DNA of 64,000 bases from Clostridiaceae bacterium (GTDB taxonomy: Bacteria; Bacillota; Clostridia; Peptostreptococcales; Tindalliaceae): contig JAABSW010000012.1 in the NCBI GenBank assembly GCA_011390155.1, positions 1 through 64,000 of the forward strand. Reading direction: 5' to 3'. Below the pieces are notes generated by a model. That model did no database searches. It worked only from the letters and a program-made list of their open reading frames with translations, and had not been told where the DNA came from. Positions 1-31,279 of the stretch are shown here, piece by piece. The position numbers and the translations under genes were made by a program. The stretch's first letter is position 1, and each line of letters opens with the position of its first letter.

Positions 1-296
1 GGGTAACCAACTTGTGTTGCCAATGTGCCGAAGAACCCTTCGGCTACGCCAACACCTCAGCCACCTTTTTCTTTATAGCCTTTGAAAGCGTTTTCTTCTG
101 CCACTGCAGGGTCAACCTTTTCATAAGGCAGCGGCCAGGAATATGGTTCTGGTGCAGCACTCGCTGTGGTGGAAGAACAGGCTGTCAAGACTGTACCCAT
201 TGTACCGGCCATAGCCACCCCTGCCAATGTCACTCCGGCGCCTTTCAAAAAATCCTTACGTGATAACTGCTTTGTTTCCAATGTCTTCTTTTCCAT
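1..296 (-). CDS. Tat-type lipoprotein, split-Soret/C_GCAxxG-like redox protein, selenocysteine at codon 80 (partial, runs off left edge)
   Basis: The start at 296 is preceded by AGGAGG (305-310). Residues 12-35 form a Tat-like signal (SRKDFLKGAG) ending in a lipobox LTAC, so the mature protein should be a membrane-anchored extracytoplasmic lipoprotein. A W-P-x-P-Y-x-K-x-D-P segment, then KGYKEKGG, leads to UGA at 57-59. The same frame stays open afterwards to the window edge (GVGVAEGFFGTLATQVGY). From memory this layout matches split-Soret cytochrome / C_GCAxxG-type redox proteins, in which a conserved Cys stands where the UGA is. A 7-bp hairpin starts 13 nt after the UGA, as expected of a SECIS. 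I therefore read the UGA as Sec80. The C-terminal part, which would hold any heme or metal ligands, lies outside the window, so the family is tentative. Confidence 0.72.
12..56 (-). promoter_or_regulatory. Candidate bacterial SECIS element of the left-edge Sec protein
   Basis: Immediately 3' of the UGA (57-59) the minus strand folds into GCCGAAG-GGUU-CUUCGGC, a perfect 7-bp stem (38-44 pairs with 27-33) with a four-base loop starting GG. An outer UGUUG/CAACA pairing is also possible. The loop begins 20 nt after the UGA. This fits the general bacterial SECIS model: apical loop roughly 16-37 nt after UGA and a G in the first two loop bases. Confidence 0.7.
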
Positions 297-647
297 TACT
301 TCATCCTCCTTGCATATGTATTGTTAAAATTTATACTTATTACCCTAAAAATATACATCCAATCAAATCAATGGATATATATTTAACGATATGATCATAC
401 CATAAGCGTAATCACATATCAAGCTTTTTTATGATAGTATTTAATTGTTTTATCCTTTTTTTATAGTTGGTCCTCGTAATCATTGAAAATACACGTCAAA
501 TAATATTGCTTTCCAAGTGTTTCGCAGCCTATCAATTTTTATTATGATGTCCCCACTAAACTTAGACATAAAAAAACATGCTAAATTTGTATTCTCAGCA
601 TGTTTTTCTGACTACAATGTGTTATTTGCGTAACGGAGCACTTGTCT
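297..647. other. Intergenic region, 350 nt
   Basis: Holds the ribosome binding site (AGGAGG, 305-310) of the left-edge gene, AT-rich leader sequence in which its promoter must lie, and the terminator of the deacetylase gene (571-608). I see no further gene or recognisable RNA. Confidence 0.6.
571..608 (-). terminator. Rho-independent terminator of the deacetylase gene
   Basis: On the minus strand ACATGCT pairs with AGCATGT (597-603 with 576-582) and is followed by a run of T. Confidence 0.7.
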
Positions 648-4058: not shown

Positions 4059-6707
4059 TTAGGCTTTTAATTCCTCAATTCGTTTTTCAAGGGTCACTAA
4101 CATGTCCTGGAATTCGTCTTTTTTCGCTTTTTCTTCCTCCACCAGCTTAGTAGGGGCCTTTTTCAAAAACCCTTCATTGGCCAGTTTGCCCTCCACCCGT
4201 TTGATTTCAGAAAGAGCTTTTTCTTTCTCTTTTTCCAATCGCTGGATTTCTTTCTCGATATCGATAAGTTCCGCCAGTGGAATGTAGAGCTCTGCCCCGG
4301 GAATGATGGTGGAAACTGCCAACTCCGGTACTTCTTCAAATTTCTCCAGAAAGGTAACCTCTGCAATCCCCGCCAGGCTTTTTAGGTAGGGGGTTCCCAT
4401 GGTGATGACTTCCCGGCTTTCTTCCGTATGTGCCATCACCTGCAAGGCTGCCTTGACACTGTGGGGTACGTTCATCTCTGCCCGGATGTTGCGGATATTA
4501 CGAATGGCTGTCATCAGATGTTCCATGCGGGTTTCCATGTCTGGCTTCAGTGCTTTTTCCCGTGCCTGGGGCCAGGAAGCCACCATAATACTGCCTTCTG
4601 CACTGGGCAGGGTTTGCCAGATTTCTTCCGTGATAAAGGGCATGAAGGGATGGAGCAGACGCAGGATGCCTTTTAACACTTCTGTCAGCACCACCTGGGC
4701 GGTTTGACGTGGTTCCACCTGGTCGCCGTAAAGCCGTGTCTTGGTCATCTCAATGTACCAGTCGCAATATTCGTTCCAAGTGAACTCATAGACTTTTTGC
4801 AACGCCAGGCCCAGTTCAAATTTATCCAGGTTGGCGGTTACCTCCAAGCGGGTACGCTCCATCCGCGAAAGAATCCATTCATCTTCCAGGGCCAGGTTTC
4901 CTGCCATCTCTTCCATTGTGGGCATCTCTTCCTCCAAGTTCATAAGAACAAAACGGGTGGCGTTCCACAGTTTATTGGCGAAGTTCCGTGCAGATTCCAG
5001 TTTTTCCTGGCTGAAGCGCAGGTCGCTTCCAGGACTGTTGCCATGGATCAGGGTGTACCGCAGGGCGTCAGCACCAAATTCGTCGATCACTTGCAGGGGG
5101 TCAACCCCATTCCCGAGAGACTTACTCATTTTTCGTCCCTGTGCATCCCGTACCAATCCATGGATCAGCACGTGTTTGAAAGGTATTTCTTCCAAATGCT
5201 CCAGGCTGGAGAACACCATGCGGATGACCCAGAAGAAAATAATATCATAACCTGTCACCAAAACATCAGTGGGATGAAAGTATTTCAGTTCCGGGGTCTC
5301 TTCCGGCCATCCCAGGGTGGAAAAAGTCCACAGGGCGGAGCTGAACCATGTGTCCAGAGCATCTTCGTCCTGGCGAAGTTTTGTTCCGCCGCAGTCCGGG
5401 CATATTTCCGGGACAGTACGCTGTACGGTGATGTGGCCGCAATCATCGCAATAATAAGCAGGGATTCTGTGACCCCACCACAGCTGCCGTGAGATGCACC
5501 AGTCACGTATATTATCCAGCCAATGGAAATAGGTTTTGTCAAAACGTTCCGGCACAATTTTAATGGACCCGTCCTTTACCGCTTTGATAGCAGGCTCGGC
5601 CAGGGGTTCCATGTGAACAAACCATTGCTCTGAAGTAAGGGGTTCCACGGCGGTGTGGCAGCGGTAACAATGTCCGACGCTGTGGTTTCGTTCCTTGGTG
5701 GAGACCAGGAGGCCTCGTTCATCAAGGTCTTTGACAATCTGCTTTCGGCATTCGTAGCGGGTCATGCCCACATAAGGACCCCCCAGTTCATTGATGGTGG
5801 CATCGTCGTTCATGACACGGATCTGTGGCAGGTTGTGGCGCTGTCCCACTTCAAAGTCGTTGGGGTCATGTGCCGGCGTAATTTTAACAGCCCCTGTGCC
5901 AAATTCCGGGTCCACATAGGTATCTGCCACAATGGGAATCTCCCGGTTCAGGAAAGGAAGGACGGCGATTTTACCAATAAGGTGGCTGTAACGTTCATCC
6001 TCCGGATGAACCGCCACAGCGGTGTCACCAAGTATGGTTTCCGGACGGGTGGTGGCCACTTCAATGTATAGGTCTTCGTCTTTAATCGGGTATTTTACAT
6101 GCCAAAAGTTACCCATTTTTTCTTCGTGTTCCACTTCTGCGTCGGAAAGCGAGGTTTTGCAATCTGGGCACCAGTTGATGATTCGGTTTCCACGGTAAAT
6201 CAAACCCTTTTCATACAGGCGCACAAAGACTTCTGTAACGGCTTTGTTACAACCTTCGTCCATGGTGAACCGTTCCCGTTCCCAGTCACAGGAACTGCCC
6301 AGTTGCTGCATCTGTTCCACAATGCGGCGGCCATAGGTGTCGCGCCAGGCCCAGGCTTCGTCCATAAACTTTTCACGACCCAATTCCTTCTTGGAGATAC
6401 CCTTTTCTTTCTTCACCTTTTCAACCACTTTTACTTCTGTGGCAATGCTGGCATGGTCGGTACCCGGCATCCACAGAGCTTCATAACCGCTCATACGCTT
6501 GTAACGGATGAGAATGTCCTGTATGGTCTGGTCCAGGGCATGGCCCAGGTGAAGGGCGCCGGTGATGTTGGGTGGTGGCAGCATAATGGTAAAAGGCTCT
6601 TTTTCCTCGTTGACTTCAGCGTGGAAATAGTTTTTGTCCAGCCAGTTCTGATACACCTTTTTTTCAAATTCCTTTGGGTCGTAATTTTTGGGCAGTTGGT
6701 TCAGCAT
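4059..6707 (-). CDS. valS: Valyl-tRNA synthetase
   Basis: An 882-residue class Ia aminoacyl-tRNA synthetase, full length for the bacterial family. The HIGH-type motif is HLGHAL (about residue 53) after PPPNITGA, and the KMSKS motif is KMSKSLGNG (about residue 525). The CP1 editing domain lies between them, and the C-terminus is a Lys/Glu-rich coiled coil typical of ValS tRNA-binding arms. It charges tRNA-Val in the cytoplasm and hydrolyses mischarged Thr-tRNA-Val. Transcription passes a T-box leader (6745-7035), so expression should rise when tRNA-Val is uncharged. folC and the QueG-like gene follow in the same operon. Confidence 0.98.
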
Positions 6708-30967: not shown

Positions 30968-31279
30968 ATGAAAAATAACAAGGATCATCTCCTTGGCGCC
31001 GGAGCAATTGTTGGCGCCTTCTTATCAGCCATGTGCTGAGTGGTTCCCATGGTGGTTGTGTCACTAGGACTTGGTGGCTTCGCATTGTCATATGTCTCCG
31101 TGCTGGCACCTTACCAGCGCTACATTCAATTTGCAACCATAGGATTACTCATGTGGGCTCATTACCGTATGGACAAGCAGCCCATGAAACGCAGCACCAG
31201 GATTTTTATCTGGGCAGCAACAGTGGCTGTTCTGCTCTTTCTGCTCTCGCCACTCATCACACGTCTGCTGCTCTACTAA
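30968..31279 (+). CDS. MerT-like mercury transport protein with selenocysteine (Sec24)
   Basis: Read through UGA at 31037-31039 the frame is open from ATG 30968 to TAA 31279 and gives 103 residues. It has three hydrophobic segments and clear MerT architecture: GAIVGAFLSAMC-U-VVPM, then SLGLGGFALS and LAPYQRY. In MerT the first membrane segment holds a vicinal Cys pair followed by x-G/V-P (ACCLGP in Tn501) that takes Hg(II) from the periplasm; here the second Cys is Sec. The cytoplasmic Cys pair of classical MerT is absent, as in MerT-like variants. A SECIS-like hairpin starts 20 nt after UGA. Without recoding only a 23-residue peptide and a headless fragment would result. It is monocistronic, upstream of a terminator, with no merA/merR nearby. 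Inferred role: uptake or handling of Hg or another soft metal at the membrane. Confidence 0.85.
31040..31078 (+). promoter_or_regulatory. Candidate SECIS element of the MerT-like gene
   Basis: After the UGA, GUCACU (31060-31065) pairs with GGUGGC (31073-31078) including two G-U pairs. The loop AGGACUU starts 27 nt after the UGA and has G at its second base. Distance and loop fit the bacterial SECIS pattern; the stem is weaker than in the other two cases. Confidence 0.55.

Follow-up and report, generated by a model that had tools for sequence, protein, structure and literature searches.

The window analysed here, a stretch of 64,000 nucleotides, carries at its left end the 5' part of a gene (copy A) that comparison of homologues confirms as a real gene, predicted to encode a selenium-containing protein, in agreement with the first observation made on this DNA: its in-frame UGA is conserved and exchangeable with cysteine, the SECIS-type hairpin behind it is shown to be under selection within the coding sequence and is frozen in its codons, and tRNA-Sec and SelB are encoded in the same genome. 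The product would be a selenocysteine (Sec)-containing, heme-less lipoprotein, probably exported by the Tat system, in which Sec and three cysteines jointly build one redox site, for which an iron-sulfur (Fe-S) centre with a selenolate ligand is most likely, a reading that we consider fairly probable. The features on which the following sections draw are these:

1..296, minus strand: 5' part of selenoprotein gene copy A, about 98-99 codons, with ATG at 294-296 and the frame open to base 1
305..310, minus strand: AGGAGG ribosome binding site, read directly, 8 nt before the ATG
243..263, minus strand: Tat-like motif SRKDFLK (RK, not RR), R and K invariant in 24 aligned members
177..188, minus strand: lipobox LTAC, predicted lipidated Cys at 177-179, this Cys being present in at least 90% of 24 members
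57..59, minus strand: UGA, read as Sec, codon 80, position 1 of the four-Cys quartet by the Cys/UGA alignment of homologues
27..44, minus strand: bacterial SECIS-like hairpin, arms 38-44 and 27-33 (7 pairs), loop 34-37 (GGUU), 12 nt after the UGA

Conservation of the UGA codon and of its hairpin

At position 1 of the quartet, the 95 distinct sequences aligned (including relatives added from 398 genomes of the phylum, with all UGA-bearing matches taken and not all others, which biases any Sec/Cys ratio) have UGA in 68 cases, Cys in 27 and nothing else. The earlier note had placed the UGA at a conserved cysteine site, and this is borne out, Cys-bearing homologues included. Full-length copies from the own and related genomes (29 examined of 30 listed) have TGA at this codon in 28 cases and TGC in one; TGA is likewise found at 37 of 38 loci taken from 84,980 genomes of named species, the two sets overlapping and the single TGC locus, from a MAG, being identical in both. 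Conservation on this scale excludes a chance in-frame UGA. The protein itself is carried by 24 of the 198 genomes searched (the own genome and relatives).

Could the UGA be a genuine stop, leaving a 79-aa exported peptide or a pseudogene? UGA does end 10 of the 48 long ORFs in the window, but this reading is contradicted by purifying selection beyond the codon (dN 0.15-0.26 and dS 0.55-4.8 in four pairs), by the invariant cysteines downstream, by the Cys codon that homologues have at the site and by the frozen hairpin, and we regard it as highly improbable. Still less credit can be given to a change of code in which UGA would be read as another amino acid, e.g., Trp: the frame is indeed open through the UGA, but UGA terminates other genes, all 27 non-UGA sequences have Cys at the site, and tRNA-Sec (73.4 bits, cut-off 47) adjoins SelB (395.9, cut-off 242.25) on contig C28 of the own genome. 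Every one of the 198 genomes gives a match to profile TIGR00475 at E 1e-20, other elongation factors presumably included, and only matches above its cut-off were counted; these occur in 22 of the 24 protein-carrying genomes (own included), the two below it being 79% (G050) and 63% (G058) complete, and in 155 of the 198 genomes overall, so that the result is consistent with Sec and not discriminating.

The hairpin described in the earlier note, with seven perfect base pairs and a GGUU loop (GCCGAAG-GGUU-CUUCGGC), is present. Folded alone it reaches -12.6 kcal/mol (z -4.54), which none of 200 shuffles equalled; for the 44-nt stretch from the UGA of copy A, z is -2.44 and 6 of 200 shuffles did as well. 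Applied to the intact paralogue described below, this 44-nt test yields a z of 0.11; the energy test alone is thus not decisive, and codon freezing and pairing across homologues were used instead. When the 63 conserved columns that have degenerate codons were ranked by codon freezing across 46 distinct UGA homologues, four of the top five proved to lie in the hairpin (F88, E85, A84 and G86), the F88 codon being TTC in 44/44 UGA homologues. All 46 UGA homologues keep six or seven of the seven stem pairs, both sides of the stem having changed in two genes (TCCGAG/CTCGGA), against a close Cys homologue in which the hairpin is lost, with five of seven pairs left. A search of Rfam gave no match near the UGA.

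Contig end, continuation and copies of the gene

The window corresponds to G000:C13:1-64000, and its left edge coincides with the end of contig C13; copy A is therefore cut by the assembly and not by nature. The gene had been described as truncated, with a frame open to the window edge: the frame is open to base 1, and the truncation is that of the contig only. At its start, contig C45 repeats the first 311 bases with 95% identity and diverges afterwards, and the same contig carries an intact paralogue of 219 aa with a single UGA, at the same place as in copy A, while each end of contig C32 holds a C-terminal half of the selenoprotein. The assembly evidently broke inside near-identical copies of the selenoprotein gene, and the genome therefore has at least three of them.

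Synteny with a contig of a same-genus MAG (L046) places the continuation of copy A. There, an intact selenoprotein gene is preceded in a single row by ValS, FolC, a QueG-like gene and a polysaccharide deacetylase and followed by MTHFR, these neighbours being named by eye. Similarity to the window extends as far as base 6293 of this contig; similarity to the right end of C32 begins at base 6496 and runs on through MTHFR (1,662 bases, 82%), so that about 200 bases are missing between C13 and C32. The 3' part of copy A is thereby placed at C32:50973-51132, where the frame ends ...ERKSRCAGVTADVTRKLVEILNEQLG and then a stop. Far from closing just past the window edge, the frame thus continues on C32, and about 138 to 140 codons lie beyond the UGA in the intact orthologue and paralogue. 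As part of the favoured reading, and with the same measured confidence, the full protein would be a Sec-containing lipoprotein of roughly 218 aa, about the first half of which is encoded in the window. Gene callers stopping at UGA would split such genes in two.

A scan of the window for further UGA candidates returned seven, mostly chance by eye. In the window at 31016-31279 (plus strand, UGA at 31037-31039), a small membrane protein contains the motif CU (in AFLSAMCUVVPMVVV), its UGA is followed by a hairpin, and it looks like the MerT-like selenoprotein of reviews (C/SxxU); it may be one of the other two selenoproteins that the earlier note counts. At the left end of C32 (L008 702-974, minus strand), a 91-codon open stretch with its UGA in GUCHSG lies near the C-terminal half of another copy of the gene, and is one that we take to resemble HesB-like selenoproteins. 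In Alkaliphilus sp. NP8 (L052 5102-5659), a neighbouring copy has no stretch around the Sec codon (KEMGGYGMSTLCG) and is an apparent internal-deletion paralogue without Sec.

Fold, cysteine quartet and predicted export

The protein had been assigned from the outset to the split-Soret/C_GCAxxG_C_C type. The intact paralogue scores 34.9 bits with PF09719 (C_GCAxxG_C_C; gathering cut-off 27), and the window's fragment of about 98-99 residues gives no match to this profile because it is mostly signal and linker. By sequence, the intact paralogue matches the split-Soret cytochrome c 1h21 (E 9.1e-18), with U79 aligned under a Cys of 1h21; a structure model (pLDDT 80.2) has 1h21, the only solved relative, as its sole fold match below E 0.001 (E 4.1e-10, TM 0.70, rmsd 2.0), the protein being predicted to fold like 1h21. 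The curated cut-off of NF047622 (split-Soret cytochrome c) is not reached. CxxCH heme motifs were sought in the intact paralogue and none was found; they are absent too from 54 of the 95 aligned members (51 of them Sec), and 41 of the 95 (17 of them Sec) have two in a C-terminal extension, UGA matches being over-sampled in both counts. The other three cysteines of the quartet are invariant wherever their column is filled (95/95, 94/94 and 94/94), and the third is followed by His in 41/41 diheme forms and 0/53 heme-less forms, which fits a role of this His as heme ligand. The gene belongs to the heme-less branch and thus does not encode a cytochrome; the split-Soret/C_GCAxxG_C_C relationship of the original assignment stands.

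A quick tree of 94 rows has two heme changes and six Sec/Cys changes, the latter counted without direction, so that the exchange happened repeatedly. Such repeated exchange is usual for catalytic thiols and, together with the Pfam label of PF09719 ('putative redox-active'), speaks for an enzyme of thiol-disulfide type with Sec as its catalytic nucleophile, in which Sec would pair with one of the three Cys as a selenenylsulfide, no metal cluster being bound. In the excerpt available of PMC9312934, moreover, most prokaryotic selenoproteins are presumed to take part in redox reactions. However, across the 95 distinct sequences, diheme forms included, the three other cysteines do not vary and the fourth position admits Sec or Cys only, the PDB title of the only solved relative speaks of 'a novel iron centre', and the frequent TatC neighbours suggest a folded, cofactor-bearing cargo. 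Because of this title, and of the TatC genes that accompany the family, an Fe-S centre is our first choice and a catalytic selenol, possible and of lesser probability, comes next. The iron centre of 1h21 is, we assume, possibly of the [2Fe-2S] type.

As regards export, Tat profiles gave matches below cut-off only, and TatC is present in the own genome. What the earlier note called a Tat-like lipoprotein is retained as a predicted exported lipoprotein, LTAC being present, with the reservation that the Tat motif has RK rather than RR; the protein is probably exported folded via Tat and anchored outside the membrane. In the favoured Fe-S reading, Sec and the three invariant cysteines would make up a single redox site, its Fe-S centre would be assembled in the cytoplasm prior to Tat export, and once exported the protein would transfer electrons or carry out a reduction outside the cell, FMN-binding proteins being plausible electron partners.

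Gene neighbourhood and comparison with known systems

Neighbourhoods were compared within up to 6 kb on either side of the gene at 39 loci, namely the 38 named ones and copy C of the own genome. Genes for LysR, TatC and FMN-binding proteins are each found at 14 of the 39, and paired YedE/YeeE halves at 13, always with LysR and in at least three gene orders; TusA-like and rhodanese neighbours are also present at selenoprotein loci. All seven LysR neighbours tested have NF040786 ('selenium metabolism-associated') as best match, one example scoring 242.3, below the cut-off of 250, and the transporter halves match YedE/FdhT best, at 108.6 and 112.7, well below the cut-off of 350. No copy in the window's own genome was seen to have this LysR/YedE neighbourhood, and in that genome NF033796 has one weak broken match only. 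There, copy A lies between the polysaccharide deacetylase and MTHFR genes, copy B adjoins an ArsR-like gene and a permease (both named by eye), and copy C has a reductive-dehalogenase-like ferredoxin protein on one side and an FMN_bind protein of four repeats on the other. The latter (L004 6806-7981, plus strand), which adjoins the intact copy C, is a candidate electron partner.

The selenium-type regulator and transporter genes near several relatives suggest that expression follows selenium supply, and it is from the neighbours that a sulfur or selenium compound is put forward as a possible substrate. The same LysR_Se-like, split YedE-like, TusA-like and rhodanese neighbours would fit a protein acting mainly as a receptor or reductase of selenium or sulfur compounds that feeds a YedE-type importer, YedE (split in archaea) and the LysR_Se subfamily having been proposed as selenium genes by comparative genomics (PMC5322559, the available excerpt of which makes no mention of this lipoprotein). 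Against such a role, which we hold to be unlikely, the neighbourhood occurs at 13 of 39 loci only and is not seen around the own-genome copies, and the neighbour scores lie below curated cut-offs.

A broader and more speculative proposal, which goes with the Fe-S reading and on which we place limited weight, is that the whole superfamily, with its heme-less lipoproteins and its diheme split-Soret cytochromes, has time and again exchanged Cys for Sec at one ligand of an extracytoplasmic Fe-S centre, and that in selenium-using Clostridia the Sec form is co-controlled with a split YedE-type importer, as an outward-facing, selenium-tuned module of electron transfer or selenium acquisition. If Sec does ligate an iron centre, the family would offer a natural system of exchangeable Sec and Cys for probing the effect of selenium on an Fe-S or redox site, and versions with and without heme could be compared. 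The locus is also a handle on selenium uptake or response in selenium-using Clostridia.

In the literature searched, no work joins split-Soret to selenoprotein, an earlier description elsewhere being possible, and nothing was found on selenocysteine as selenolate ligand of an iron-sulfur cluster. The Sec-bearing diheme split-Soret relatives and the selenium-type neighbours (LysR, split YedE) were not seen in this literature either, which may miss earlier descriptions.

C-GCAxxG-C-C selenoproteins (PF09719) are tabled in two reviews, as form 1 and form 2 in the excerpt of PMC13188914 and as one entry in that of PMC9312934; they have the Pfam family and one predicted Sec in common with the window protein, and the table rows do not say which residue is Sec. 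The window protein is likely form 2. The accession of form 2, WP_012158890.1, is near in number to WP_012158954, an Alkaliphilus oremlandii protein according to the excerpt of PMC6683785, and is thus probably from this species and of the window protein's family, which other Alkaliphilus species carry. Selenium versions of the broad PF09719 family are therefore already known, as far as these excerpts go, and the gene adds a member. With split-Soret cytochrome c (1h21; NF047622), the window protein has in common the fold, the domain order and the four-Cys pattern, with Cys there at the Sec site, but it differs in having no CxxCH hemes and no His after the third Cys, and in its score of 99.6 against the NF047622 cut-off of 400. 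The UGA-bearing diheme split-Soret-like proteins (L091-L104, L106 and L107), predicted from their sequences to be selenium-containing split-Soret cytochromes, have the same Sec position and the same other three Cys as the window protein, and differ from it by two CxxCH in a C-terminal extension and by their separate branches on the tree.
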